This document shows, one piece after another, positions 1-55,545 of a stretch of 64,000 nt of DNA. The stretch covers positions 23,374,001 through 23,438,000 of the forward strand of contig OZ038526.1 of NCBI GenBank assembly GCA_964036665.1, given 5' to 3'. The notes under the pieces were generated by a model that saw only the letters and a list, made by a program, of their open reading frames with translations, made no database searches and was not told the origin of the DNA. The stretch is from Gordius sp. MW1 (lineage: Eukaryota; Nematomorpha; Gordioida; Gordea; Gordiidae). A program made the translations under genes and the position numbers. How positions within the stretch are numbered: the first letter of the stretch is position 1; each line of letters opens with the position of its first letter.

Positions 1-400
1 ACGTGGAGCAACAGCTGTTTAAAAAAATATTTAAATAAAAAATATTTGAAATATATAGGGTGTAATAGAAATTTTACTTGCTATTGGATAAGGTATGAAT
101 GGTACTAATTTTATATTTAAAATATTAAAAAACATAATTTAATTTATATTTTTGATTAAATTTATTTTTAAAAACCAAAATCTTATTAAAATTTTAAAGA
201 TAAAATTTATAAGAATGTATACCTGGTCTAGGCTGAGGTAGATAAAATGCTGTCGCTAACATAATAATCCTAAAGATTAATATTTTTTGAAATTTTTCCT
301 TTAGAAAATTAGATTTTAAATAATTTTTCGAGGAAAATAAAAATAAAAAATAATAAAAACTGAACATTAAATATTCTACTGAGCAATGAGTAAATGTACT
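1..400 (-). repeat. Copy 2 of a duplicated intron-exon block
   Basis: Bases 1 to about 400 match about 1639-2010 with few differences, including exon borders and intron sequence. The offset is 1638 bases. Part of that distance is a LINE fragment (758-1140), so the original unit was probably about 1.25 kb. Confidence 0.85.
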
Positions 401-1898
401 AAGCAAAATAATTTGTTCTCATTAAAAAAATATAATATTTTATAATTTATTGAATGTTCATTTATTTATTTTTAAATAATTTTTACCATATGGTATGTCG
501 GAACGAAATTCTAAAAATACAGAAATAATTATATTTATTTATTTTAGAATTAAATTTTTTCTGGAGCTGGTTGTGGTTTTTGAGATAAATTTAAATACTA
601 ATTTTTGTTTAATTAAATTCATTATTCAATCTAAATTTACAAACTTATTTTTAATTTTTGTAATGGATTTAATACAATTAAAATACATAATGTTGAAAGT
701 AATGTAAGGACTCAAATAATATAAAAGTTAAAAGTATTTAAGTATTTAATTCTAAGTGGCCTAAACGCCGGCTGGGACTACACTGCAGTGGATATATTTG
801 CCAAATCTAACGCCTCTCCCGACCTCATCTCTTATACTGAGAGAAAGATAGTGGAAAAATACAAATACCTCAGCAATATTATTTTTGTACGAGTAGTAGC
901 CACAACCCTCGGTAATCTAGGTCCCGAGGGCAGACAATTCCTTAAACAAACAACAAAATTTATAACCTCCATCACACACGATCCCAAAGAATGATTCTAC
1001 ATCAAGCAGAAAATCACCATGGAAATTGTAAAATCTAATACAATCTCAATCCATGGCTCGATGCCAGCTTATTAATTTAATATGTTTTAGCATATAACAA
1101 TACATATTTATTCGGAAATAAACTTCTATCGATTAAAAAAAATTGAATTTTTAAAAGTAATTTAATATTTATTCATTTTTTATTTAAATATAATTTTGAA
1201 AAATAGGATATAACATATTCATCAGATTGAATCGTTTAACATAAAATTAAAAAAAAAATTTGGATAAAATGGGACAATAGCTTAAATGAAAAAAAATGAA
1301 TTTTATAAAATAATAAATTAAATTTTGTTTAAATTTAAATTAATTATCGTGCAATAGGATAAATTGGCGCTAAAAAATTTAAATTTTAAATTCGAAATAA
1401 ATTTATATTTATATATTTTAGTTTTTTATTTTTTAAATATGTTTTTTTGTCATATAAAACACATTTCAATTGATTTTAAAGGCATTTAAGTATTTTGTAC
1501 GAATAAATTATATTTTATAAAATTAATATTTGTTAATTTCTCTATAATATTTAAGTCGATCGGTTTTTCTTTTGTACAAAACAAAATATTAAATCGTAAA
1601 AATAGATTTTGAATTTTACCTTGTCTTGGCTGATATGGACGTGGAGCAACAGCTGTTTAAAAAAATATTTAAATAAAAAATAGTTGAAATATATAGGGTA
1701 TAATAGAAATTTTACTTGCTATTGGATAAGGTATGAATGGTACTAGTTTTATATTTAAAATATTAAAAAACATAATTTAATTTATATTTTTGATTAAATT
1801 TATTTTTAAAAACCAAGATCTTATTAAAATTTTATTTTAAAGATAAAATTTATAAGAATGTATACCTGGTCTAGGCTGAGGTAGATAAAATGCTGTCG
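1..1898 (-). CDS. Pro/Arg-rich repeat micro-exons of the micro-exon gene
   Basis: Exons 1866-1898 and 223-255 (33 nt each) encode the identical peptide TAFYLPQPRP. Exons 1620-1652 and 1-14 (partial) encode VAPRPYQPRQ and its beginning. Between them 487-510 (24 nt) encodes FRSDIPY. All are phase 1 with AG/GT borders. The protein therefore repeats a Pro/Arg/Tyr module by genomic duplication of an exon pair with its intron. The gene leaves the window in the second copy, so more modules and the stop codon are probably to the left. The region around 570-590 reads QKPQPAP on the minus strand but lacks a GT donor, so it may be a decayed exon of the same kind. Confidence 0.75.
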
Positions 1899-4800
1899 CT
1901 AACATAATAATCCTAAGATTAATATTTTTTGAAATTTTTCCTTTAGAAAATTAGATTATAAATAATTTTTCGAGGAAAATAAAAATAAAAAATAATAAGA
2001 ATTGAATAAAAATTATAATTTTAAAAAATTTAATTATTACGTCTAACTTCGATTGTTTGAGAATCTTTGAAAAATGAATTAAAAATATAAATAAATATAA
2101 AAAAAATATAAAAAAGATTAAATTTGTATAATTTAAAACTACCTTTTCTTTGTTGTTTAAAATATTCTAGGAATAAAATTTAAATTAAATTTAAAAAACT
2201 TATAGAATATTTAAATGAAATCTTTACCTTTACATTGTTTTTCAATTTCTGTAGAAAAAGAATTATTTCAATTAAAATTTAATTTTAAAATAAATTATAT
2301 TAAATAAAATTTACTTTTATTTTTCTTTTTCAACTTTTTATCTCTTTTCTCATCATTTTCTTTGATATTAAAATTTGATAATTAAATAAAATAAAAGTTG
2401 ACATACAAAAAAAATAAATTCGAATTTAAATAATTGTCAAAATTAAACATTAGTTTATTGTAAAAAATGGAAAATTAAACGAAAACCTCATAAAATATTA
2501 AAATAAATAGGTTTGTTTTATTAATTTAATAAAACATTTATAAACATATTTATTTGTTTTCTACCAAAAAATTTAAATTTCCAAAATTTAGATATAATAA
2601 TATTTCTAACTACGTTGTTTTTCATATTCTTCCAAAAGCTCCAGTAATTTTCCTAAAATTAATTGACATATAATTAAAAATCTTTTCAACATTTTATCAA
2701 TATAAATAAATAATTTTTCAAAATTTTAATAATTTAAATATGATTTAGATTTAATTAAAAAACGTAAAAATAGCAAAAATACTAAAATTTTAACCGAAAA
2801 AAAGATTATATAATGTGAAATTTATATTTTTTAACAATTATTTTAGTAACAATTTAATAATAATATTTCTAATTAGGTTGTTTTTCATATTCTTCCAAAA
2901 GCTTTAGTAATTTTCCTAAAATTAAATTATTTAAATATAATTAAAAGACTTTTCAACATTTTATCAATATAAATAAATAAATTTTTCAAAATTTTAATAA
3001 TTTAAATAAACATTTGATTTAGATTTAATTAAAAAATCGTAAAAATAGCAAAAATACAAAAATTTTAACCGAGAAAAAGATTATTTAATGTGAAATTTAT
3101 ATTTTTTAACAATTATCTTAGTTACAATTTAAAATAAATTCACAAATATAAAATTAATATATAATACTAGATGAACCCGGCTAACGTTGTTTTGCCATTT
3201 ACCCGAGTGTATTAAATTATGTTGGAATTTTAGGGCATATACGGTGATAAAGCGGTTATTGAAGTAAAAATAAAGTTTGATGTCTATATGTTCTACTTCT
3301 ATTGTTCTATTTCCGTATACAGTGCAACGCGTACGAATACTCGAAGACTACTGGACCGATTTGGCTCGAACAAATCTTAAAACATGCTCCGGAGTGTCAG
3401 GAATAAACTGTGAAATTTTGAGCCAAATCGGTCTGGTAGTTTTCCAAAATTGGTGGCGGCATATATACACACACACACATAGTTCATTTTTATATATAAG
3501 ATATTTATATACTTTTTTTGTAATTTGAATCGTCTGCAATTAAGTAAATTAGTATAAAAATATTTTAAGCATAATTAGCAAAAAAATATCTATAATTTTA
3601 AATTATAATAAGTATTTTAATAAATTTTAGTTTACTATTAATTTAACATTTTAAAACAAATTTATTTTCGAATAAATATACGAATTTATAAAATTATATT
3701 GTTTAGAAAATTACAAAAAAAAACTTAAAAAAAGAATATTATTTGAATAAATAATAATTATTTTTCAAAATAAATAACCTTTTTTAATTTCTCTGAAATT
3801 AATACGATTATTTTCAACTTCATTTAAATTTTTCTTTAATATGGTATCTATAAGTTCAGTTTTGGTTTTTCCTTTGATTTCAAAAATCTCCATGTTCCCT
3901 TCTTTTACTAAAATTAAATAAAAATAAAAAATATTTGAAAAAAATAATAAAATTATAATTTTTACAACATTTTCATGATATTTTGCTGATAAATAACGAA
4001 CAAAATGTTAAATTTTCGATATTTTAAATACTATCTGTAAAATTATTAAATAAAATTAATAAAATTAAATATAAAACCATATTTATTAATATTTTTTTAA
4101 AAAAAACTACAATAAATTAAATTAATTTACTTTTTAAAGAATCAGCAAGGTTTAGTGGTCTCCTTATGTCTATATTTTTTAGGTATTTCAAAAAATTATT
4201 TTTAATCATATTTTTAAAATATTATAAATATATTTAAATAAACCTGTAACAAAATCTTTAAAAGGTATAACTAAAAAAATAATTTTTTTAATTTAAAAAA
4301 GGATTTTATAATAAAATTCTATGAAAAAATTTAAAGTATTGTTAAGTTTGTTACTTTCTCCGGTAATTAAATCTCTAACTCCGTTTTCTAAAAATATATA
4401 AATTATTAAAAAATAAATAAAATAAAAAATAGTAATTTCAAAAATGTTTTTTGTCATAAATTTTAAAATACTTAAGGTTCCATTTACAAGATCAACTAAA
4501 AATAAAAAAATACATAAATAAATTTATTAATAATTAAAAAAAATAATAGAAATTTTTTTTATTACTTTTATATTTTTGAATTAATGACCCTCTTTGATAT
4601 AATTCTATTTTAATAATAATCAAAAATTCATAAATAAAATATTTAATTTAATAAAAATCATATATAAATACCTATTAAAATTGCATTGGGCGACTCTAAA
4701 ATATAAAATCAAATGATTTTTTTATTAAATATTAATAAAAGGAACAAAAACAAAAAAAAAATATTTAAAAATTAAATATACCAAAAAAACTAGTAAAATT

Positions 4801-5240
4801 AAAATTAAAATTTAAAATATTAAAAATACTTGATATAGCTTCACGTAACGCTTTAAAAAAACAAAATTTATTAAAATATATTAAATAATAATTTTTTAAA
4901 TAAAAAAAATTTATTTACACATATCTAATTTTTTAATTTTGGTGTCGTAACCTATGGATAAAAAAATGAAAAAATTTTAGGTTTTAGTATAAATTCAAAA
5001 ATTAAAATAAAATTTTGCAAAAAGTTACCATCCATCTCGTTTGCAAAAACATAGGATCCAATAAACAGCATTCCCGCTATTATCTTTAAATTTAAATTTC
5101 ATAAAAATTTTGTGAATTTATTTTTGAATAAGAGAAAAATAAATAAAATCATCTAAAAAAAATAAAAAAAAATTACTTGAAAAAAGATGCAAAAATATAA
5201 AAATATATTTTTTTACTTTAATAATTTTGGAATTTTTCAT
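1..5240 (-). CDS. Micro-exon gene encoding a putative secreted protein (3' end outside the window)
   Basis: Reconstructed from AG/GT boundaries and frame. Exons in order: 5217-5240, 5029-5083, 4919-4951, 4830-4850, 4672-4695, 4566-4604, 4472-4495, 4355-4387, 4244-4270, 4131-4169, 3779-3907, 2614-2652, 2315-2359, 2228-2248, 2143-2166, 2041-2064, 1866-1898, 1620-1652, 487-510, 223-255, 1-14 (partial). Every complete exon after the second is a multiple of 3 (21-45 nt, one of 129) and starts and ends in phase 1. The joined frame stays open for about 246 codons with no stop at any junction. The product starts with a signal peptide, has a Lys/Glu-rich middle and ends in Pro/Arg-rich repeats. Schistosome micro-exon genes and aphid bicycle genes have similar architecture; sequence homology to either was not tested. 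No function is assigned. RNA-seq is absent, so individual junctions could shift. Confidence 0.8.
758..1140 (+). mobile_element. 3' fragment of the RLE-type LINE (copy A)
   Basis: A 5'-truncated copy within an intron of the micro-exon gene. It encodes GWDYTAVDIFAKSN, matching the conserved C-terminal WD-T-C-D-FA block of the longer copy at 29718-31745, and ends in an A-rich tail near 1131-1140. Sense is opposite to the host gene. Confidence 0.8.
1639..2010 (-). repeat. Copy 1 of the duplicated intron-exon block
   Basis: Partner of bases 1-400. It contains the start of the VAPRPYQPRQ exon and the whole TAFYLPQPRP exon. The high identity in intron sequence shows the duplication is fairly recent. 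Confidence 0.85.
2041..2652 (-). CDS. Lys/Glu-rich micro-exons of the micro-exon gene
   Basis: Exons 2614-2652 (39 nt, KLLELLEEYEKQ), 2315-2359 (45, NDEKRDKKLKKKNK), 2228-2248 (21, IEKQCK), 2143-2166 (24, YFKQQRK) and 2041-2064 (24, SQTIEVR). Each has AG/GT flanks, symmetric length and phase 1. The run is highly charged and probably helical or disordered, with one cysteine. The 39-nt exon has an almost identical second copy at 2877-2915 that has lost its donor. Confidence 0.7.
2877..2915 (-). pseudogene. Duplicated 39-nt micro-exon with lost donor site
   Basis: Nearly identical to the exon at 2614-2652, inside a tandem duplication of about 270 bp (about 2590-2856 and 2857-3130). The acceptor AG is kept, but the base pair after the exon is CT instead of GT, so it should not splice as a normal exon. 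Confidence 0.7.
3170..3505 (+). repeat. Degenerate short retroelement-like repeat
   Basis: Starts with an ACCCGGCTAACGTTG head and ends in a CA microsatellite and TATATATAAGAT. It contains mirrored segments around an 'accgatttggctc' motif. This layout resembles 3' ends of non-autonomous RTE-like elements; the family is an inference. A related head occurs at about 20255. There is no coding content. Confidence 0.45.
3779..3907 (-). CDS. Largest internal exon (129 nt) of the micro-exon gene
   Basis: Flanked by a T-rich AATTTTAG acceptor and a GTTATT donor, phase 1 to phase 1, 43 codons equivalent, no stop. It encodes a charged, helix-prone stretch beginning KEGNMEIFEIKGKTK and containing ELIDTILKKNLNEVENN. 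It is the only internal exon of conventional size in the gene. The downstream intron contains a retroelement-like insertion at 3170-3505 and a duplicated exon copy. Confidence 0.75.
4131..4951 (-). CDS. Eight symmetric micro-exons of the micro-exon gene
   Basis: Exons 4919-4951 (33 nt, YDTKIKKLDM), 4830-4850 (21, LREAIS), 4672-4695 (24, SPNAILI), 4566-4604 (39, LYQRGSLIQKYK), 4472-4495 (24, DLVNGTL), 4355-4387 (33, NGVRDLITGE), 4244-4270 (27, IPFKDFVT) and 4131-4169 (39, IRRPLNLADSLK). Peptides are the complete codons; each junction adds one residue. All have AG before and GT after, lengths divisible by 3, and one base before the first full codon. Because all are symmetric, any one could be skipped or duplicated without a frameshift. 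The exons stand out as islands of higher GC in introns that are almost pure A/T. I do not recognise the protein sequence. Confidence 0.75.
5029..5240 (-). CDS. Signal-peptide exons 1 and 2 of the micro-exon gene
   Basis: Exon 1 (5217-5240) is ATG plus seven codons, MKNSKIIK, ending at a GTAAAA donor. Exon 2 (5029-5083, 55 nt) follows an AAAG acceptor and reads IIAGMLFIGSYVFANEMD before a GTAACT donor. Together they give a basic n-region, a hydrophobic stretch of about 13 residues and a likely cleavage site near YVFA/NE, a classical secretory signal. The first exon joins in phase 0 and the second leaves in phase 1, which sets the phase of all following exons. The intron is 133 nt. This start was chosen because it is the only nearby ATG that gives an open frame into exon 2; a shorter start at the internal Met (MLFIG) is possible. 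Confidence 0.75.
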
Positions 5241-5289: not shown

Positions 5290-6640
5290 CAACTAATACT
5301 ACAAATTTATATCAGACTTATATAAATGCCTTTAGGGTAAATCGTAAATCACCGTGTAACTTTTCAAGAATTCCTTTATTATTTATTTTTATTTATTTTA
5401 CTTAATTTATTTTTATTTATATTATTTAACTTTATTTATTTTTTATTTTTAAAAATAACATAAGTATAATATGCGTTTATAAAATCAAAAATTTTAAATA
5501 TTTTTTAAATTAAAATAATTTATATTAAATTTAGTAAATATATTTAAAATATAAGATATAATTTACTTCCCTAAAATTTATTAAAATCAAAAATTAAAAT
5601 AAAAAGGAAAATTATATTGTTCATAAAATAAAAAATTTTATCTATGAATAGTTTGTTATTCTGGGACATGCCCTTAAGGTACTAACATTTAAAGTAACAA
5701 ATTCTTTATGTCTAGACAAGCAGTTTTTAAGAAAAAAATTATAAATACATTTAAAAATAAATAACATATTCTATTGAAAATAATAAAGAATATAAATAAA
5801 AAAACCGATTAAATCATTTTTTACTTCAATTTTACTTTTGCAAAAAATCGCAAATTTCTGTATTTTTTTAATTTGCAATAATTCTTAATTTATAAAATAA
5901 TTTAAAATATTTTTTAGATTTTAAAACAATGTTTGTAAAAATTTTATAACATGTTTTAGCGTTTTTATAGGGCACGAGAGGGTGTATAGTATATTATTCC
6001 GAAAGTAACTTATGAGGGACACAAATAGCCCCAAGGGTAGATTACAGATTTTTTTCTTAATTTTTTTTAAATATTTCAGCGCTTTTACAATAAAAGAATG
6101 GAATATTCTAGTAACTTTACAAGATAAATGATTTGTTTTTATTATTTAATATATAAATAATTTTTTTATTTTTGTAAAAATTAGAAATCAAAAACGTTTT
6201 TTTACTTTCAATCTAAATCTGGTTATTTTTAACTTGGGACGTTGTTATATTAACTCTAAATAAAATTATGCGAATTCCTGATTGTACATTTTTAATTATT
6301 AAAAATATCATTTGATACTTTTACAAAATTAAATTTCTAGAATTTAATTTAAAATAAAATATTTAAAAAAAACTAAATTTTTAGATCTTAATTGGAAACA
6401 AAAATAACATTTGTACATTTAGACGATGATTCAATGAATAGTAATTTTATCTGTTTTTTTAAATAAAATTTCTAATAGATACTTTTATTTTTTTTGTTTT
6501 TTTTATTTTTAAGAATAAGAATTATTGAACGGTATTTTAAAATATTATTTCCTTGTGTTTTCACATATATTTTACACAATTCATTTATTTAATTTAGAAG
6601 TTTCCTATTGAAATGAGTATGCATTTTTTTAATTTAGATT
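5290..6640. other. AT-rich intergenic spacer
   Basis: No convincing exon or element. Three short islands (about 5310-5355, 5655-5690, 5970-6050) share a loose 'CCCTTAAGGG'-like motif and may be decayed repeats. Confidence 0.5.
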
Positions 6641-20429: not shown

Positions 20430-20873
20430 AAAGCATTAAAAAGTAATGATATTAAAAACATAATCATCACGCAAAAACCTAATGAATCACTCTTAACCAT
20501 CTTACAAAATAACTATGATTCCGATTCACAGACAAATAACGTTGTCTATAAAATTACCTGTAGTGATTGCAACCAATTTTACATCGGGGAAACAAAAAGA
20601 GACATAAAAGTTAGGCTCAAAGAACACTTGGCCGCTTTATATCGCCCTAACGTGGTACCAACAGGAGTATCAAACCACATTTTAAAGGAAAATCACACAT
20701 CGACACCTAAACAATCCATCCTACTTTTTACAAAATCATATTTTGAAAGGAAGACGTTAGAGTCCTTCTTTATTAGAAGACTTAACCCCACTCTAAATGA
20801 AGATATGGGAAGAGTACCCCTCTACCCTTGGTTACACAAAAATTTATCACTACCAAAAGAACATACTATTTAG
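20430..20873 (+). pseudogene. Penelope-like element GIY-YIG endonuclease fragment
   Basis: Open frame of about 147 codons after a stop at 20427-20429. It contains NNVVYKITCSDCNQFYIGET, the expected KI-x-C-x2-C zinc-knuckle-like pair followed by the YIG core, then RLKEH and later NPTLNEDMG. This is the C-terminal nuclease of Penelope-like retroelements, which nicks the target. The reverse transcriptase is absent, so the copy is 5' truncated. A hammerhead-like motif follows 51 bases after the stop. Confidence 0.75.
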
Positions 20874-24982: not shown

Positions 24983-25415
24983 AGATTTATAGTTGTTGAT
25001 GTTGGTAGTAGAGGCAGTAAATCAGATGGAGGTATATTTTCCAACTCAAATTTATTTAAACAATTGGAAAATACCTATTCCTCCCCCCAAGAAGTTGCCA
25101 AACTCAAATATTATAGTTCCCCATGTGTTTGTGGCAGATGATGCCTACCCATTAAAGACTTATATCATGAAGCCCTTTAAAGGTTTGGGCACCAATTCCA
25201 TCAGACACTTTAATTATAGGCTTTCTAGAGCTAGAAGGCTTGTTGAGTGTGCATTTGGTATACTCTCCTCCAAATGGAGGATTTTAGGGAGATCAATGGA
25301 TACAAAAACATTTACAATCGATTTAATAATAAAAACATGTGTGATTTTACATAACTTAATTATTGATAAAGAAAATCCTTATATAACCCGTGATCTATCA
25401 AAGGATCTAAAATAA
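24983..25415 (+). pseudogene. Harbinger DDE transposase, frameshifted
   Basis: First frame (24983 to about 25070) reads RFIVVDVGSRGSKSDGGIFS, with the first catalytic Asp. A one-base shift leads to LPNSNIIVPHVFVADDAYPL (second Asp) and RRLVECAFGILSSKWRIL (catalytic Glu). These match the HARBI1 nuclease fold in order. The N-terminal third is missing. Confidence 0.8.
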
Positions 25416-28839: not shown

Positions 28840-29720
28840 TGCGGGAGAATAGGCGATGGCTACATCTACCATTTATTTTAGTAAGCGCAACCTTTTGAAA
28901 AATGCGTTTCTTATAATTACCATTTTCCGATCAACAAATGATTGGTATTAAGATGTCGTTGTTTACAATTAAATAGCGCAATTCAAGAGGCTGTCTTATT
29001 TTCTGTAAACTCATGTGAATACAAATTTAGGAAAAGCTAACCAAATATGCTTTTAAAATTGTTTGGAACAAATCAACTTATCAAAATGTTTGGATTTCTC
29101 ACACATATCAGATAATAGTTTTCTAGTTAATGGGGAGCAATTTAATATCACAGAAACCACATGCTCATGTGGCTTTCAAAGCAGCATATTGTTGCCTTGT
29201 TGTCACCTCTTTAAGGCAAGGAAATTTAACAACATTAAATACTTTGACACTAAATTATGCCCAGAGAGATGGGTAAAATCTGGGCCAATCAATGTGGATT
29301 CTGAAAATGAGGTTATCATTCAAATTGACAATGTGCCTACAACTGAAAAATCATTGTCCAAAAATACAAAAAATTCCAACCATAACTTCAGAATTAAATT
29401 CCATAGCATGTGAGATGGATGATAAGTTGTTTGATATGTATTTCATTAGTATTGAACATTTCAAAGCTAATATGTTAGAACTTAGAGTCCCTGACATTTT
29501 CAGAATGGCTGCAAGTATAAGATGTAGGCAATCACATAGTTACTAATAATTATGATGTTAGTGATTCTCAACAGCCTTTTCTAAAAGTAATTAAATTTAA
29601 ACTGTTGTAAACTATTTAGCTATTGAAAATAGATTTGAATCTATTAAATTTTTATTTTATTTTTTTTGATTAATAATAGTATCTTTTATTAAATGAAACT
29701 ATATACTACTATAAAAATTA
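28840..29720 (+). mobile_element. MULE-like transposon remnant with SWIM domain
   Basis: Shares 28846-28980 with 33620-33690 and with 57600-57720 (inverted). The coding part (29063-29413) has a SWIM zinc finger. The end (29660-29715) reappears inverted at 33696-33740. Confidence 0.55.
29063..29413 (+). pseudogene. SWIM zinc-finger region of a MULE-type transposase
   Basis: FNITETTCSCGFQSSILLPC followed by CHLFKARKF gives the C-x-C...C-x-H pattern of SWIM, then DTKLCPERWVKS, as in ZSWIM3-like, MULE-derived proteins. Only the C-terminal part survives. Confidence 0.6.
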
Positions 29721-31745
29721 TATGCTAGGTAAACATTCAAAAATTGCGATCGCGTTGAAATGACAAATTATAATTCCGATTTTCTGTTTTAAAAAAAAAG
29801 TTTCCCTTTGGTCAAGGGTATTGGCAGCTATACGGCGCCCCAATTCTTTCAGGAGGGCTTGGGTTTTGGGACCTATTGTTGTAAGGGTAGTGGTCACTAT
29901 AGGGCAGAAAAGGAGTGAGGAATTATGTTCTGCGTATTTAGCTGACTTTATTCTTTCAGAATCGACAAGGGGGTCTTTGTTTTGGTTTGAGGGTGCAAAG
30001 GCATCCGGACAAGTGTAGTCCCATGCTAGGCATAGCCCTTTTGCCCAAGGGATGTGGGTCTGTCCATCGGGTCTCTTCTTGTCGCTAAGGCAAAGACCAT
30101 TAGGCTCCAATTGGGAGGGAAAGCCAGCCTTATTGAATGTCTTCTTTAGAAAAGCATTAACAGATGTGTGACGTAAAAATCTGGCCTTATTAAATTTGCA
30201 ATGAAGGCCGTGATGACCTTTTGTACCTACAGATGAGCCACATAAGTTGCATTGATGGGGGGCAACTATATCACAACCTAGGCGGAGCCCTGTTGCGATC
30301 CTGAACTCGTTGTTGGAGAGTTGAAGGTCATGGGTCCGACTTGGGATGGCCTCCAACCACTAGTGGCCGGACCTTGATGCAAAACTTCTTAAAGCTGGTA
30401 ACTCCTACAACGAAGCGCCCGATATAAGAGTTTTAAGGGCATGGTCGTAGAGAGGAGTGTTCCAACTTTTTTGAGAGTTTATGGTAGGGAATGGAGTGTT
30501 AGGGTCGGACAAAGAGCTCCACATGTCGAGAGCGATTTGGGTAAAGGGATCTGGTTGATCGATTATTTTGTCGATGATTGGTTTGGCTGAAAGTCGACTC
30601 GAGATGAAGGCCGACAAAGCTACTAGAGGGGGTGATCTCAGACCCAAACCACCATATTTTGTGGGGAGACACGCTTGTTTCCATTGGGACCCTGTAAAAG
30701 AAAGGTTTGTGATTTCCTCGACTACACCTTTGAGTTTTTGTTCGAATATAGATAGAGCATTAGGATTTAAAAGTGAGGTGGATGACCTGAAGATATGATT
30801 TATCTTAGGTAAAGAATAGCAGTTTTTAATTAAAAAGAAAGCCTGGTGGGCTGGCAGGTAAGAAAGGAGAGGTTTGATTTCTACTAGTTTTTGTATTGTC
30901 TCTGTTAATGACTTGTTACAAGGGTGTGAGCCACCTACGGGAGATCCTAAGTGCGTTAGTTCGTTAGGGTGAATATGTTTGAAAGCGTCAAAGTATGGGT
31001 CTAGGCTTAAAGAGTCAGTATTGTTTTTGCAAACCTCGGTCTTGCTATGATTTAGATGGAGACCAATTTTTGAAGCCTCGACTTCTAGATAAGAGAGGGC
31101 TTCTTTGACGTCTTCGGCATTTCCGTTGATGGTACCATCGTCTAGGTACCACAAGTTGAATGATAGATTATATTTAGACGCTAGGTCTTCAGTCAGGGAT
31201 TTTATACCTAGGCAGAATAGTAGGGGGCCTAGCGGGTCTCCTTGTTGAATGCCGTCACTCGATGCAATTATTTTGGAATTAAAGTTGAGCATGGAAGTAG
31301 GAGCGTAGCATGCGTTAAGGAAAATGGAGTACTCGGGAAGAGATTTGTAAGCCTCGGTTAAGAAGTGTGACCTGTAGATCGTGTTAAATGCGTTTTTGAA
31401 GTTAATCTTAGCTAGGATCGAATGGTCGGGATGGGCTAGGGCTATGCGAACAGCGTGAGAGGCGATTTCACAACCACCCTTGGTTCCAAAACCTAGCTGG
31501 ATAGGAGCTAATTGATCTGCAATGTCGGATTTTACTCGTGCAATGATAAGTTTGCAGCATATGCGTCTAAAAATTGAACCCATGGCAATTGGACGAAGGC
31601 CACCATCAGGTTTGGTAAAAGATATTAAGGTGGCCCCAAAAAAATAGGGAGAGATCGCGTCAGGTACTAAGCCTTTAATAACCTGGTTAAGGAAGGTTGC
31701 TAAAGTGGATGTGAAGTGGCCAGACCTGTTTAGTTGAAGTTGTTG
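29718..31745 (-). mobile_element. RLE-type (R2-like) LINE, copy C, best preserved
   Basis: One frame covers RT to C-terminus with only two in-frame TAG codons (at about 30406 and 30361). RT blocks: KPDGGLRPIA (just upstream of the ORF ATG), QLGFGTKGGCE, INFKNAFN, DGIQQGDPLGPLLFCLG and the catalytic WYLDDGT (about 31140). The C-terminal part has CNLCGSSVGTKGHHGLHCKF (a CCHC-type knuckle) and LEPNGLCLSDKKRPDGQT with LAWDYTCPD, resembling the restriction-like endonuclease of R2-group elements. The copy is 5' truncated at 31745. Confidence 0.85.
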
Positions 31746-31818
31746 GAATCATTATTTTAAAAATGATATTAATAATGTTGATATTTTTTCTTATCCGCAT
31801 ATTGTAAATTATTTACAC

Positions 31819-36244: not shown

Positions 36245-37100
36245 TGGCATTTTACTCTACTACAGGTTTATCCCAAATATCCATAATCCTTCTACGTGAA
36301 CAACACAAACTCCACAACCCAAACCGGAATCTGCCCAGTCTGCTACTTGGCTTCAATTACCCTCTCTAATTTGATTTACGTTCACGGTCCATTAAAACAG
36401 AGGTGCCCAGGCTCTGGAAAACATCCAGCAGCTACAGTCCCCAAGAGGTCTACCTCTACTCACAACCATTTATTGCATTATACCTACTCCCCGCTCGAAA
36501 CCACCACCACCAATACATATTCAGACATTCCTCATTCTCCTGTTAACAGGATTCTAAAAAACATCCCTAAAGGTGCCAGACATCAAGTTCTAATTGTCCT
36601 TACTGATGCCATCTCAGACCTCTCTAAGGACCCAAGCAGCACCCTCCATTGGGCCAACCTTTTTCAATTTACTTCCCGTGTCCTTTCAATACCACCATCA
36701 AATTACAAAGGTACCCTCTCGAATTGGGTTAAACAAAACTCAGCAAAATGGGACGTTTCATCACCCCCCATTATCTACGAGCCACACATCCATAAGATTA
36801 CATCAGTTCAACAAAGAGCCAAACGGGTTTCCTCAAAACTCAACCACTTTGACATCCAGGGTGCCCTTCGCCTGGCCAATTAAGACTTCCCCAGACACTC
36901 AAGAAACCTTCGAATCTTTACAAACTAAACACCCTGAAAGAAATTGCTCCCAATTTCCCCCTACAATCAACTCCCCCTTCAAGGACTTCACATCGCCCGA
37001 AATTCTCGAGGCTATCGGTTCTTTTAAAAAATCCTCAGTAGGTTCTGGTTTAGACGGCTTCCGTGCTTCACATTTAATAGAATTAACAAGACCTCACAAC
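36245..37100 (+). mobile_element. RLE-type LINE, copy D, 5' part
   Basis: A frame from 36287 (no ATG) carries an N-terminal zinc-binding region, CPVCYLASI and VHGPLKQRCPGSGKHP, typical of the start of this LINE group, and runs to 36883. After a frameshift, EAIGSFKKSSVGSGLDGFRA (about 37010-37070) is the block just before the RT. The copy then breaks off near 37100. It complements copies A-C and E-F, which lack the 5' part. Confidence 0.75.
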
Positions 37101-37520
37101 ATATTAGCATCAGTTACTAACCCTAACCCTATATAAGGTTACTTGTGAGATGTCATTCAGTGGTTGAAACTTGGTTATAGCTAAGGTTGACAATGCTAAT
37201 AAATAAATAAATTAATCCATGTTTAAAAATTATACTTTTATGTGGTATAATAAGATGGGGCTCAAATTTAATAAATTTTAAAATGAAACCAATGGAAAAA
37301 TATCATATGGTAATTTCAAATCGTAGCCATAGCCTTATCGTAATTTCGGGATTGTGCGGTTTAGGGAATATGCGGGGTTCCCTTGGTTTATATAAGCTTG
37401 GCTTGGTAAGTAAGTTGTTAAGATATGATAACTACGGTACTTGAAGAAATATTGATGCCTTTAATTTGAAGGGGAATTTAGGTATCGATTTATTCGTTCT
37501 ACCAAGTATTAGATCAATAT
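37100..37520. other. Spacer with a short CCCTAA run
   Basis: TAACCCTAACCCTA at 37117-37131 adjoins the broken end of LINE copy D. Otherwise nothing recognised. Confidence 0.4.
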
Positions 37521-37535: not shown

Positions 37536-38298
37536 CAGGGTTTCTTTCAGAAAAAATGCTCCGGGGGGGGGGGGGGGTATTTTCAACTTTCGAGGGGGGG
37601 GGGGTAAAAAATGTTTTAATTGCTAAATCATTTTGTATAATATTTACTGATTTTTATTGGTGATATAAGTGATATATTAATAGATAAATACACGCATAAT
37701 CATTAAATAAATACATGTAATATTTTAACGGGCAAGTGTTCTTTTAAGAAAGTAACCGAATTCTTCTTTGTTTTTTAAAGGCATACTTATTAATCGCCAT
37801 ATCTAGATATTTTTCAGTAGGAAGGTCGGCCCCATCTATAGATATTCTCATACAGTGGTCTAAAGATATCTCCCCTAGCCTGTTTCTTAATGCAACCATA
37901 ATTCGGTTCATTGTACCAAAGGACCTTTCAACAGTCGCCGTTGTCATAGGGATTGTCATTAGTTTGGCATTGAACCGTTTCACCTCTGCATACCCCAAAT
38001 TGCATTTTTGAAGAAATTTTAAAGGTGTTTCTGATCCATTCAAAGTAGCCGCAAGAAATTTGAATGATTTTATGTCGGCATAAAGATATTCTTCGTCAAC
38101 GTCGTGAAAATGACGACACATCATTTTTTACGTCAGATTCTCGGATCTGTTGGACCCTTTAACTCTGGAAAAATGAGCATCCTGAAAACAAAACTCTTCG
38201 GGGGGGGGGGGGGAGGTATTTAAAATTTCTGGGGGGGGGGGGGGGGGGGTATTACCCCCTCCCCCCCCCCCCCGGGCTTCCCCCTGAAAGAAACCCTG
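37536..38298 (-). mobile_element. hAT element with perfect ends, internally deleted
   Basis: Inverted ends CAGGGTTTCTTTCAG (perfect), flanked by CAAGGGAG at 37528-37535 and 38299-38306. Subterminal G-runs flank a C-terminal transposase fragment. It inserted into the MITE at 37520-39493. Confidence 0.9.
37744..38124 (-). pseudogene. hAT transposase C-terminal dimerisation domain
   Basis: TIPMTTATVERSFGTMNRI followed by LRNRLGEISLDHCMRISIDG is the hATC signature (VERSFS...LR..L...L..L). Only the last 126 residues remain; the DDE core is deleted. Confidence 0.75.
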
Positions 38299-43214: not shown

Positions 43215-43860
43215 GAATTTTTGGCGGTCCGCTGGCTGCTGACCAATGAAAAAAATGACCATTAGCCAAAATGTGAATCGAAAATATTTTTTTCATTTTT
43301 TTTTGACTATTATGATTGTTCCTGTTTCTACCATACCATTGCTATTATGACTTTTTGGCCGTCCGCTGGCTCCTGACCGATGGAAAAAATGACCATTGGC
43401 CAAAATGTGAATGGAAATTATTTTTTTTTGACTATTATGATTGTTCCTGTTCCTACCATTGCTATTATGGGCCGTCCGCTGGCTGCTGACCAATGGAATA
43501 AAATGACCATTGGCCAAAATGTTATTCGAAAATTTTTTTTCGTTTTTTTTGACTATTATGGTTGTTCCTGTTCCTACCATTGCTATTATGACTTTTTGGC
43601 CGTCCGCTGGCTGCTGACCAATGGAAAAAAATGACCATTGGCCAAAATGTGATTCGAAAATTTTTTTTTTGTTTTTTTTACTCTTATGAATTTATATCCA
43701 CTTTTACCGTGTGCTGGCTGCCGACCAATGGAAAAAAATGACCATTGGTCAAAATGAGCATCAAAATTTTTTTTTCCGTTTTTTTTTGGCTATCATTGAC
43801 TTATAGAGTATCTGTTGATACTGACCAATGGAAAAAAAATGAGCATTAGCCAAATTTTAT
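43215..43860 (+). repeat. Tandem CCAATGG...CCATTGG palindromic repeats
   Basis: Six units of 105-135 bp. Each has CTGACCAATGG, an A-rich centre and TGACCATTGGCC, a short imperfect palindrome followed by a T-run. More copies lie at 43970-44010 and 45620-45780. Confidence 0.8.
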
Positions 43861-46779: not shown

Positions 46780-47590
46780 ATATGACTTTTTGGCCGTCCG
46801 CTTGTTCTATTATTGTTTCATTTTATTATATAATAAACATAAATAAAAGTTGTTTACTTTTAATTGCTAAGCAATTTAACTAGTTTTTGGGTTAGAATCC
46901 CGGAGTTTTTTTTTGACTCTTATGATTGTTCTTGTTACTATCATTGATAATAAGACTTTTTGGCCGTCCGCTGGCTGCTGACCAATGAAAAAAATGACCA
47001 TTGGCCAAAATGTGAATCGAAATTATTTTTGTTTTTTTTGACTATTATGATTGTTCCTGTTCCTAGTCCTACCATTGCTATTATGACTTTTTGGCCGTCC
47101 GCTGACTGCTGACCAATGAAATAAAATGACCATTGACCAAAATGTGATTCGAAAATTTTTTTTTCGTTTTTTTTGACTATTATGATTGTTCCTGTTCCTA
47201 CCATTGCTATTATGACTTTTTGGCCGTCCGCTGGCTGCTGACCAATGGAATAAAATGACCATTGGCCAAAATGTGATTCGAAAACTTTTTTTTCGTTTTT
47301 TTGACTATTATGAATTTATATCCACTTTTACCGTGTCCTGGTTGCTGACCAATGGAAAAAAATGACCATTTGCCAAAATGTGATTCGAAAATTTTTTTTC
47401 CTTTTTTTTTACTCTTATGAATTTATATCCACTTTTACCGTGTGCTGGCTGCTGACCAATGGAAAAAAATGACCATTGGCCAAAGTGAGCATCAAAATTT
47501 TTTTTTCCGTTTTTTTGGCTATCATTGACTTATAGAGTATCTGTTGGTACTGACCAATGGAGAAAAAATGACCATTGGCCAAATTTTTGA
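46780..47590 (+). repeat. Tandem CCAATGG palindromic repeats in unit 2
   Basis: Six units with the same palindrome and T-runs as 43215-43860. The order of unit variants is similar, indicating duplication of the whole mosaic. Confidence 0.8.
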
Positions 47591-51106: not shown

Positions 51107-51794
51107 TTAATTAAAAACCTGACGCAAGTGGTCTAAATGTTCACTAATTGATGTACTTACGATTAAAATATCGTCCAAATAAGCGAAGGTGAAATTGAGA
51201 CCACGGAGAGCTTGGTTAATGAAGAGTTGGAATGTTTGAGCAGCATTTCGTAAACCAAAAGGCATTCGCAAAAATTCATAAAGACCGAAAGGTGTAGTTA
51301 TTGCGATCTTTGTAATGTCTTCCAAGGCTACGGGTATTTGATGGTAAGCTGTGACCAGATCTATTTTGGTATAGATTGTTGTGCCGGCTAGGTTAAATGA
51401 GAAGCAGGTGTGGCAAAGGGTAACGATCCGATATCGTTAGAACGTTAAGTGCTCGGTAATCTCCACATGGTCGCCATTTTCCTGGAGTTTTTTTCGAAAC
51501 CATGTGCAGTGGAAAACTCCAGGGGCTTTCTGAGGGTTGAATTATGCCGAGTTTGAGCATGTGTGCAAACTCTTGTTTGGCAATCTTTAGCTTGACAGGG
51601 TCTAATCGTCTAGGTCTGGCATAAACGGGTGGTCTTTGTATAAGTATGTAATGAACTATTTGGTGGCTTACGCGTGACCTGTAATTTGAAAGGGCATAAA
51701 TAACGGGGAACTCTTTTAACACATTTTTAAAATATGGTGAATTGATCTTTGTTAAGTTGTAAATTATACAAGTTCGAGTCAATATATCGCCCAT
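51107..51794 (-). pseudogene. Gypsy reverse transcriptase
   Basis: [20 protein letters not shown] and DYRALN, then [20 protein letters not shown] and the catalytic [11 protein letters not shown], in two frames. Confidence 0.85.
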
Positions 51795-51967
51795 AAGACT
51801 TTAAAGTAGTATTAGAGTCTAACAAACATTTACGGCGTACATCAACGAGAAGGTTATAAGATTTAAAAATCCAGCCCCGGTGATAGGTGTCTTAACGTCC
51901 GCGATTGTAAAAACTATTGAAAACTTCTCCGTAAGCTAAGGTCCAGTTCCATTGATTTCTGGCCACG

Positions 51968-52342
51968 TCAGTATGGAACTATTATTTGCAGCTTGGAAGG
52001 GGATGTGTGAGGGGTGAGATGGTGGTTACGCGGGGGTGGTATGACACTGAGTTCCCCGCCAGTATCTATTAAAAAACGAAATTTGGTTGATTTATCGTAA
52101 ATAAAAATAAGCGACTGATATGGCCTGAACCAGGTGTCGCGGATTCTGGCAGGCCTATGGGTTTTACGAGGAAAGCGGGGTATAATTGCAAGGCTGTCGG
52201 CATTTAGTGGCCTTTTCCTTATATCTTTGATGATAACAACACCAATCTTGGGGAACGTCTGCGCGGGGTTGAAAAAGGGATCGAAATCGCATTGATGTAG
52301 ACCTATTTCTCGACTGAAAACGATTTTTTTGACTGACCTCAT
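51968..52342 (-). pseudogene. Gypsy aspartic protease region
   Basis: FRFLIDTGGELSVIPP has the DTG active site and the SVIPP follow-up typical of Gypsy proteases. Confidence 0.75.
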
Positions 52343-52595
52343 GCCGCAATGTCTCGATGCTCACGCTCAATTTATTGACCATGTCTCTGAGCGTCTTAAT
52401 ATCATTGTTTGATCTATGTGTGGCAGGGGCGACGTTGGATATTTGAGGCGTATGGTATGTTTCCACGATTTTATCAGCTGTTTCAGCTAGCTTGATTAAA
52501 GTCTGGTCACTTGCACAGATTGCCGGTTGACCAGTTTTTCCAACCCAATTGTTTTAAGATGACGTCATCCATTTTGGCGGTACCCAGGAGGCTTT

Positions 52596-53804: not shown

Positions 53805-55545
53805 ACCTCTGTAAATCCGCCCTTCGAGAGAGGGATGTTCAAGGATGGAAAGAACTTTTGCCCGTTTGTGGGCAGCTTGAAGCAGAGTATTAATTTTTGG
53901 TGCCTACTATACCGGCTTTTGTTAAATTTTCAATGCAGAGGGTGACGCGCTTCCTCATCTACAAGTGAATTACAAAGCCGGCAGGGGTATGGAGACGTGT
54001 ATTTACAGCCCAAACGGAGGGCTGTGATGAATAGGACATGGTATGGTTCTCTAAAAACATTCCCGAAAACTTACTAGGGTATTCAAGCCATTCATGACCG
54101 GATTGGTCAAAAGCCAATGACCTAAGGTTGCAATGCTGTTTGGAGTCGCATGTCGAGCGAGGGTAAGCAACGGACCGCGACACCAAACTTGCATCCAAAT
54201 AATTTTGGGCATATGATTGTGGATAGTCAACTCCTAAATTGACATTCTCATTCCATAGAGATAAGGCTTGATTGATAGAGGGTTTGAGTGAGAAAGGGAC
54301 AAGGTCGTTAATAGGTTGTTTAAAAGAAAGGGAAGAGGAAATACAGGCGGCTAAGGAAATCGCAGTAGGAGAGCGAATACCTAGATCACCGGATTTTGTG
54401 GGAAGAGTGGCTTGATACCAAGTAATCGTGTTAAAAGAAATATTTAAAATCAATTCAAGTGTGGATTTAAAAAAGTGTTCATAATTGTGTAAAACATCTT
54501 TAAACAAAAAAGCTTGCGTGGAGCGGAAGCAGAATAAAATTTTGCTAATGTTGTAATAATTTTTTATACTATAAAAGGAATGATGAGAGGGCATTGATCA
54601 AAAAGGTCTAATTTGGTTTTTAAAAAAGAGAGATTTTTGTCTAAAAAGTTTTTGAGGCACTCAGGTAGGTCCCCGATTATTGCGCCTAAAACATACATAT
54701 TGTCTTTTTTAACTTTGGCAAAGTCAAAAAACTTTGAGTGAATATTATCCAAATCAGATTATATTTCACTTTTAGAGGCGTTTAAACATAAGTTTAAAGT
54801 GGGGAAAAAGCATGTATTACGTCTAGTGCTTGGACTACGGTGTCAGGGGTGTCAACAAGAGTGGCGTCATCTAGATACCAGACATTAAGTTACAATGTTT
54901 GTTAATTTTATTAATTAGGTGATTTATAGCCAAACAGTAAGGGGGGCCTAGGGGGTTGCCTTGTTGGATCCCTTCTGCAGATTCAAGAAAGAATTCTCCA
55001 AATTTCAAAATCGAAGGGCATCAGTAACTTAAAATGATGTAGTTGGTGTATTGGGGAAATAGCTTGATAAAATCATTAATGAAAGCAGTGCGGATGCTAT
55101 CGAAAGCATTTTTAAAATCCAGTTTTAGAAAGGAGTCACACAGAGGGAGGTGTTCCAGTGCTAAGTGTGCGGCATGGGTAGCTATCTCGCACCCTCCTTT
55201 GACCCAAAAGCCTAGTTGATGCGGAATTAAAATCGGGGTCAATATGGGTTTGATGGACGAACAAATTAATTTAGAAATAATTCTTCGAAAGACATCGCCG
55301 ATAGCGATACGCCTGGCTGAATTGTCGGTCTTCCTTATAGCTAAAAGTTTAGCTCCAAAGACTATGGGTATTTCTTTAAGTATACACCCATTGACTCAAA
55401 GGTTACAAAATTTGGTGAGTAAGTCTAGTAAAATGGAGGAGTTATTATTATCAATTGTTATTAGATCTTTTAAAAATATTGGTTTAATGCTGTCGAGACC
55501 ACCTGCAGAATCCAAGTATCATGTTCCGGCGGCGCCATAAAAGTA
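53805..55545 (-). mobile_element. RLE-type LINE, copy F
   Basis: Minus frame blocks: SAGGLDSIKPIFLKDL (about 55500), HQLGFWVKGGCEIATHAAH, LKLDFKNAFDSIRTAF, a degraded catalytic region near 54870, LPTKSGDLGIRSPTAISLAA, and a CRLCNS-type zinc knuckle near 53960. It sits exactly between the inner ends of the large inverted repeat. Decayed. Confidence 0.75.

Follow-up and report, generated by a model that had tools for sequence, protein, structure and literature searches.

The window analyzed here is a stretch of 64,000 nucleotides (nt) of contig C8 (C8:23374001-23438000), within a genome of 211.8 Mb in 12 contigs; its minus strand carries a predicted gene built largely of very small exons, which is the subject of this study. 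Positions without a contig label are window coordinates, and those of paralogs and other genome loci carry the contig name. Judged by its mitochondrial COX1, the genome is that of a gordiid hairworm (Nematomorpha, Gordiida): the copy on C12 (14.8 kb) shows 97% identity to Gordius sp. VVA-2019, 92% to Gordionus alpestris, 84-85% to two further gordiids and 69-71% to the remainder of the 120 sequences listed.

The gene model and its 5' end

The model spans positions 5240-1344 of the minus strand and comprises 21 exons (two for the signal peptide, 18 internal and one terminal), with 741 nt forming 246 codons and a stop. All 18 internal exons are multiples of 3, have AG/GT borders and are in phase 1 at both ends; 17 of them measure 21-45 nt and one 129 nt, and 75% of the coding sequence lies in exons of 45 nt or less. 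Introns range from 61 to 860 nt, with a GC content of 0.14 vs 0.29 in exons. The first-pass annotation of this DNA had described at least 21 minus-strand exons open for about 246 codons, with internal exons of just these lengths, phase and borders, and the final model agrees with it on each point. The predicted body of the protein is charged, rich in K, I, E and L as judged by eye and without visible repeats; the predicted tail contains 12 prolines and four tyrosines in 41 residues, and a single cysteine is found among the 246 residues. At least four more phase-1 exons are present in the window (510-487, 255-223, 104-78 and 14-1), all in tail modules. The features are listed below in the direction of the gene, where "scan" is the frame-blind splice scan and "alignment" the comparison with two paralogs on contig C6, called C6 minus and C6 plus after their strands.

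5317-5326, minus: TATA-like box TTTATATAAG, lying some 80 nt upstream of the start codon; C6 minus shows the AAAGGCATTTATA context too
5217-5240, minus: exon 1, 24 nt, phase 0-0, start codon, MKNSKIIK; start, frame and gtaaaa donor kept in C6 minus
5029-5083, minus: exon 2, 55 nt, phase 0-1, remaining signal peptide IIAGMLFIGSYVFANEMD; one 3-nt indel vs C6 minus; scan without repeat exclusion places its start 7 nt later
4919-4951, minus: micro-exon 3, 33 nt, phase 1-1; scan and alignment
4830-4850, minus: micro-exon 4, 21 nt; scan and alignment
4672-4695, minus: micro-exon 5, 24 nt, identical across all three loci; scan and alignment
4566-4604, minus: micro-exon 6, 39 nt; alignment; found by the second scan, missed by the first
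4472-4495, minus: micro-exon 7, 24 nt; scan and alignment
4355-4387, minus: micro-exon 8, 33 nt; scan and alignment
4244-4270, minus: micro-exon 9, 27 nt; scan and alignment
4131-4169, minus: micro-exon 10, 39 nt, donor lost in C6 plus; scan and alignment
3779-3907, minus: exon 11, 129 nt, the sole larger internal exon; alignment; scan chose an earlier internal donor (102 nt, still phase 1)
3513-3533, minus: micro-exon 12, 21 nt, no donor in either C6 copy; alignment; missed by scan
3165-3480, minus: dispersed repeat inside intron 12; at least 43 matches listed, 2087 first-look candidates genome-wide
2869-2915, minus: near-duplicate of exon 13 with no donor, reading to a TAG; possible alternative terminal exon
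2614-2652, minus: micro-exon 13, 39 nt; scan puts the donor 3 nt further on; with neither donor used, it runs on to a TAG that ends at 2606
2315-2359, minus: micro-exon 14, 45 nt, NDEKRDKKLKKKNK; second scan; 48-nt open phase-1 counterpart in C6 minus
2228-2248, minus: micro-exon 15, 21 nt; scan; counterpart in C6 minus
2143-2166, minus: micro-exon 16, 24 nt; scan; counterpart in C6 minus
2041-2064, minus: micro-exon 17, 24 nt; scan; counterpart in C6 minus
1866-1898, minus: micro-exon 18, 33 nt, proline-rich TAFYLPQPRP, tail module copy 1; acceptor backed by C6 minus; scan favoured an acceptor 14 nt upstream, which yields a stop
1716-1742, minus: micro-exon 19, 27 nt, PFIPYPIA; scan and module comparison
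1620-1652, minus: micro-exon 20, 33 nt, VAPRPYQPRQ; scan and module comparison
1344-1369, minus: terminal exon 21, 26 nt, APIYPIAR and stop; module copy 2 has a gtaaga donor at this place
700-1080, minus: dispersed repeat inside the duplicated tail module; at least 40 matches listed, 883 first-look candidates genome-wide
487-510, minus: extra phase-1 micro-exon FRSDIPY of the tail module; scan and module comparison
1-349, minus: beginning of tail module copy 2 (exons 255-223, 104-78, 14-1); runs past the window start, with a third copy beyond

Exons 1 and 2 encode MKNSKIIK|IIAGMLFIGSYVFANE, which is kept in a paralog: the region reads MKNSKIIK|IIAGMLFIGSYVFANEMD in the C8 gene and MKNSKIIK|IIAGMLFIGSLNVFANEMD in C6 minus. 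The donor gtaaaa after ATTAAA and an exon 2 acceptor seven bases earlier are present in both. The most likely boundaries are 5240-5217 for exon 1 and 5083-5029 for exon 2, since C6 minus preserves the two splice sites along with the frame. A longer exon 1 (5240-5177) joined at 5076, giving 242 residues without exon 14, was rejected, since C6 minus has there an in-frame stop and no GT donor. The N-terminus shows a hydropathy peak of 2.4 over residues 6-16 behind a lysine-rich start, a profile conserved in the paralog. Exons 1 and 2 appear to encode a classic signal peptide, which would send the product into the secretory path and leave a mature protein consisting of a lysine/glutamate-rich body and a proline/tyrosine-rich tail. 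The original proposal that this micro-exon gene encodes a protein with a signal peptide is supported, both exons being conserved in C6 minus.

Frame-blind scan, paralogs and exon turnover

Our main test of the exon pattern was a splice scan that ignores reading frame, adopted because frame can steer the choice of exons, with generic splice weights typed from general knowledge. It left out the repeats at 3165-3480 and 700-1080, which were chosen for exclusion after a scan without exclusions had revealed them. The main scan returned 22 exons; 18 are multiples of 3, and 17 of these 18 are open in phase 1 as well. Across 300 dinucleotide shuffles, the number of exons with both properties averaged 1.17 and never exceeded 6, which upholds the earlier claim that so long an open frame is unlikely by chance. 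Control strands gave few open exons (two of 12 on the plus strand; none of 12 and two of nine in reversed DNA). The fraction of exons that are multiples of 3 is by itself less decisive (0.82 in the real sequence, vs a mean of 0.34 and a maximum of 0.86 in shuffles).

The scan without exclusions called 26 exons; 19 are multiples of 3, of which 17 are open as well. The remaining nine are five that lie within the repeats or touch them, two of 47 nt for the TAFYLPQPRP exon, made with the acceptor 14 nt upstream, and two short extras. Compared with the 19 exons of the model that have two splice sites, it recovered 12 exactly, placed one edge differently in four (exons 2, 11, 13 and 18) and missed three (exons 6, 12 and 14), and a scan with another exon length limit recovers exons 6 and 14. 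At the exon composition, 246 codons would stay open by chance with a probability of about 1e-10, a figure that ignores the freedom in exon choice, for which reason we do not rely on it and prefer the frame-blind scan. A looser chain score was abandoned because it did not separate the gene (120.1) from reversed DNA (108.7).

Used as a DNA query against the genome, the 5' part of the gene gave 193 matches overall, part of which were listed. They include a paralog in two pieces on the minus strand of C6 (C6:17620150-17622030) and another on its plus strand (C6:17606962-17608076). There are also short further matches (e.g., C8:21675544, C4:16708381 and C4:19242077) and a fragment at C6:17600571. 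Protein and module searches of the genome, by which only recent copies are detectable, found no additional gene beyond the short matches and the fragment at C6:17600571; unrelated genes of the same plan could lie anywhere in the genome. On the evidence of these sequence searches the family is small: C8 and C6 minus are open over the shared body (138 codons), C6 plus is decayed, and one fragment accompanies them.

Exons 2-12 of C8 and C6 minus differ at 63 of 438 sites and by one indel (3 nt), vs 225 of 1168 sites and 37 indels in introns and short flanks (Fisher P 0.024 for substitutions). At the non-exon rate, 13.9 exon indels would be expected where one is observed (Poisson P of one or fewer, 1.4e-5). 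The comparison of C6 plus with C8 gives one exon indel (1 nt) vs 25 outside, with 11.4 expected (P 1.4e-4). Over exons 2-11, the 56 substitutions that separate C8 from C6 minus have produced no stop in the phase-1 frame, vs 14-18 stops in the other frames, and just 73 of 5000 neutral simulations of these substitutions make none. In the protein body 28% of the shared residues differ between the paralogs. The ratio of non-synonymous to synonymous substitution rates (dN/dS) is 0.83 between C8 and C6 plus; the value of 3.2 between the two C6 copies, based on 2.5 synonymous changes against 28.5 that are non-synonymous (with Fisher P, according to rounding, at 0.04-0.16), is suggestive only, the more so since C6 plus is decayed. 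We read the comparison of C8 with C6 minus as indicating a loose or shifting constraint on amino acids combined with a strict constraint on frame.

Because each internal exon is a multiple of 3 in phase 1 at both ends, losing, gaining or repeating one leaves the frame intact in the genome and presumably also in mRNA. C6 minus lacks an exon 12 donor and a recognizable exon 13, and continues in phase 1 with counterparts of exons 14-18. The frame-blind scan of its tail gave 27 exons, of which 24 are multiples of 3 and 21 are open in phase 1; among these 21, 12 are four copies each of the HYKTP, TV(S/L)YEPP and (T/I)ILKPN exons, arranged in tandem units of 837-853 nt. Five of the six exons in the C6 plus tail are open. 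The tail module of C8, of about 1.64 kb, contains the exons TAFYLPQPRP, PFIPYPIA, VAPRPYQPRQ, PIYPIA and FRSDIPY and is present in three copies that extend past the window. Copies 1 and 3 are without the 4 nt that form the gtaaga donor of copy 2, and for this reason the PIYPIA exon becomes terminal in them; the donor is probably the older state, since C6 minus has gtaaga at the matching place. As far as can be judged from the DNA, exon loss and cassette multiplication have proceeded without damage to the frame in C8 and C6 minus, a skip-or-duplicate design at work in evolution. The proposal that exons of this gene can be skipped or duplicated without a frameshift is thereby borne out at the genome level, in the losses and duplications between paralogs.

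Known micro-exon systems and competing explanations

Protein searches drew on 5.8 billion proteins, scored only candidates sharing words with the query and used queries without exon 14, the single-sequence query having also the longer exon 1 (5240-5177). The single-sequence search found no match with E <=1 among 559 candidates, and a search with the alignment of two paralogs none among 6548. With exon 14 included in the query, the best Pfam match was CDC45 (E 0.0055; 15.5 bits vs a cut-off of 34), which we take as a chance match to a lysine-rich stretch far below the cut-off, and the best match in PDB had an E of 0.16. The gene had been proposed as previously hidden, in keeping with the lack of any annotated relative in these protein and Pfam searches. 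Literature searches on micro-exons, Nematomorpha genomes and parasite effectors, which left most subscription papers uncovered, including some on hairworm genomes, showed no hairworm micro-exon gene among the papers listed.

The plan of the gene is nonetheless shared with two known systems, as the first-pass annotation had pointed out. Schistosome micro-exon genes (MEGs) are described as having "most of the coding region" made up of "very small symmetrical exons" (PMC4350168), as well as a signal peptide and fast protein change (PMC4350168; PMC10526429). The hairworm gene resembles them in all these respects, with 18 of 18 internal exons symmetrical and an N-terminal signal peptide predicted by hydropathy. 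It differs in phylum, in exons of 21-45 nt vs mostly 15 nt in MEGs as there described, in introns of 61-860 nt vs 0.1-5 kb, in its tandem proline/tyrosine tail modules and in having no sequence match among the scored proteins; alternative splicing, by which MEGs yield protein variants, would here be a prediction from the plan. Bicycle genes, which occur in aphids, phylloxerids and coccids, average about 17 exons; their internal exons are numerous and small and almost always begin at codon position 2, and the genes carry signal sequences, evolve fast and are hard to find by sequence (PMC9168663). Set against this published description, the hairworm gene likewise has many small internal exons starting from codon position 2 (phase 1 here), a signal sequence, fast evolution and poor findability; unlike bicycle genes it is not hemipteran, being gordiid by COX1 and thus outside Aphidomorpha and Coccomorpha, and it has one cysteine in 246 residues, no CYC motif (which is canonical though not obvious in non-aphid homologs) and no sequence match. 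Expression in salivary glands is a further trait of bicycle genes. Membership by descent in either group is unsupported, given the different phylum, the lack of the CYC motif and the lack of any match with E <=1 among the 559 and 6548 candidates, even if divergence could hide kinship to MEG proteins. Since COX1 places the genome in Nematomorpha, MEGs and bicycle genes are look-alikes by plan, and the original caution that kinship had not been demonstrated was right. An aphid or scale-insect origin of the DNA, entertained for its bicycle-like plan, is excluded by the same marker.

Hairworms are parasites of arthropods and drive their hosts into water. How they alter host behaviour is called "largely unknown" (PMC12456768). 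We consider it fairly probable that the gordiid hairworm carries here a genuine protein-coding micro-exon gene, with frame-neutral exons and a secreted product whose most likely site of action would be the interface with its arthropod host. The protein would be released where variation pays, presumably at that interface. Its body exons take substitutions and hardly any indels, and the paralogs have lost exons and multiplied tail modules in frame. More tentatively, hairworms may have independently evolved a frame-neutral micro-exon system that diversifies secreted host-interface proteins by means of a fast-changing body and of tail cassettes copied as multi-exon units. If so, they would be the third animal lineage with the same solution, after flatworms and sap-sucking bugs. 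Genes of this plan evade similarity search and, probably, ordinary annotation; the present example and its paralogs, among which exon loss and cassette duplication are visible within one genome, offer a template for finding more of them in hairworm genomes and for testing the repeated origin of micro-exon secreted proteins in parasites.

Several observations weigh against a functional gene of this kind. The differences between C8 and C6 minus are distributed 12/24/20 over codon positions 1/2/3, and dN/dS is 0.78 in frame vs 0.89 and 0.46 in the shifted frames; with third positions not enriched and such values in shifted frames, substitutions alone would not identify the frame. C6 plus has decayed, with exons 1-4 absent, a 1-nt exon indel, the exon 10 donor lost and a stop in its counterpart of exon 14. 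The last donor is missing in two of the three C8 tail modules, and these modules are too alike to show constraint (98-99%, with 0-1 of 138 exon sites and 10-17 of about 1500 other sites different). In the modules beyond the window only five of 18 exons found by the frame-blind scan are open, many of the 18 lying inside a dispersed repeat. The 3' end is moreover ambiguous, for both near-copies of exon 13 and their C6 plus counterpart reach a TAG at the same place. A short form ending at that TAG, without the proline tail, is possible from the sequence; exons 14-21 would then need splicing from exon 12 or 13. Exon 14 and the codon-position result pull our weighting of the readings in opposite directions.

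The main rival, which we judge unlikely, is a structural or adhesive secreted protein (of cuticle, egg string or glue) with a modular Pro/Tyr tail, in which the tiny phase-1 exons would reflect past amplification of repeats, as in elastin, rather than serve variability at a host interface. Such a protein would account for the proline and tyrosine content of the tail and for the tandem tail units of C6 minus that code for HYKTP, TVLYEPP and IILKPN. Elastin has small same-phase exons and a proline-rich repetitive part, and elastin-type matrix proteins consist throughout of alternating hydrophobic and cross-link modules. The hairworm gene shares with them many small same-phase exons and a proline-rich repeated part, but its repeats are limited to the tail, which alone is modular as judged by eye, whereas the body is charged, not visibly repetitive and, with its residue difference of 28% and dN/dS near 1, unusual for a structural protein.

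It is improbable, in our estimate, that the family is a former micro-exon gene drifting to pseudogenes: the broken C6 plus, the missing donors of tail modules, the dispersed repeats in introns and a dN/dS not clearly below 1 would fit such decay, but C8 and C6 minus have remained open over their 138 codons after 56 substitutions with a single 3-nt exon indel against 37 outside, and C6 plus itself shows a single exon indel vs 25 outside. A chance alignment of AG/GT pairs in AT-rich DNA is more remote by far. Frame-guided choice can yield chains of such pairs, as the near-equal score of reversed DNA in the loose scan illustrates, but the comparison of the frame-blind scan with shuffles and the conservation in paralogs speak against chance.

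Repeats and other features of the genome

The repeats at 3165-3480 and 700-1080 are different from each other, and each of the three tail modules carries the latter. Within 224 kb surrounding the gene, the other phase-1 intervals with at least seven open exons all lie in one tandem repeat family or on its opposite strand (three regions were read, and C8:23416001-23418501 was assigned by motif count only); there is also one phase-0 interval, C8:23360501-23362501, with seven of 11 exons open. The tandem repeat (ASGRPKSHNSN) has a unit of about 107-129 nt at C8:23281501-23284001, C8:23325501-23328501 and C8:23494001-23496501. It flanks the C6 paralogs and, judging by eye, probably occurs also at 43293-43691 and 46941-47315 of the window. 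Its copies are AG/GT-bounded and open, and the repeat thus mimics phase-1 micro-exons and fools structural scans.

Most other listed matches of the paralog search fall into three AT-rich clusters near 7 Mb of C2, C4 and C6, which were rejected as paralogs because the eight inspected of the 16 fetched loci are satellite-like, with 3-14% GC and no open micro-exons. This satellite-like DNA lies at C2 ~7.046-7.053 Mb, C6 ~7.031-7.062 Mb (3-6% GC) and C4 ~7.61-7.63 Mb (14% GC), with one cluster per contig among the matches listed; the clusters are candidate centromeres.

The COX1 profile gave 24 matches, the mitochondrial one among them. Mitochondrial COX1 has nuclear copies at C8:2829490-2830827 and C5:672658-673997, as well as at places on C1, C3 and C4, and one nuclear copy spans 435 of 436 profile positions. 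Phytoene synthase, tried as an aphid marker, had three matches in the genome, and the one tested was instead squalene synthase: a piece of the gene lies at C3:3815202-3815438, within C3:3813702-3816938 (PDB E 5e-19; Pfam SQS_PSY). Nematodes and arthropods are generally described as lacking this enzyme, and its presence on a nematomorph chromosome, by contamination or retention, deserves a check. Elsewhere in the window, translations inspected by eye revealed what we take to be transposon remnants, presumably reverse transcriptases, a gypsy-like piece, hAT-like and Harbinger-like transposase pieces and a GIY-YIG-like piece, at 20430-20873, 24993-25415, 29718-31748, 36287-37136, 37744-38127, 51393-52553 and 53959-55395.

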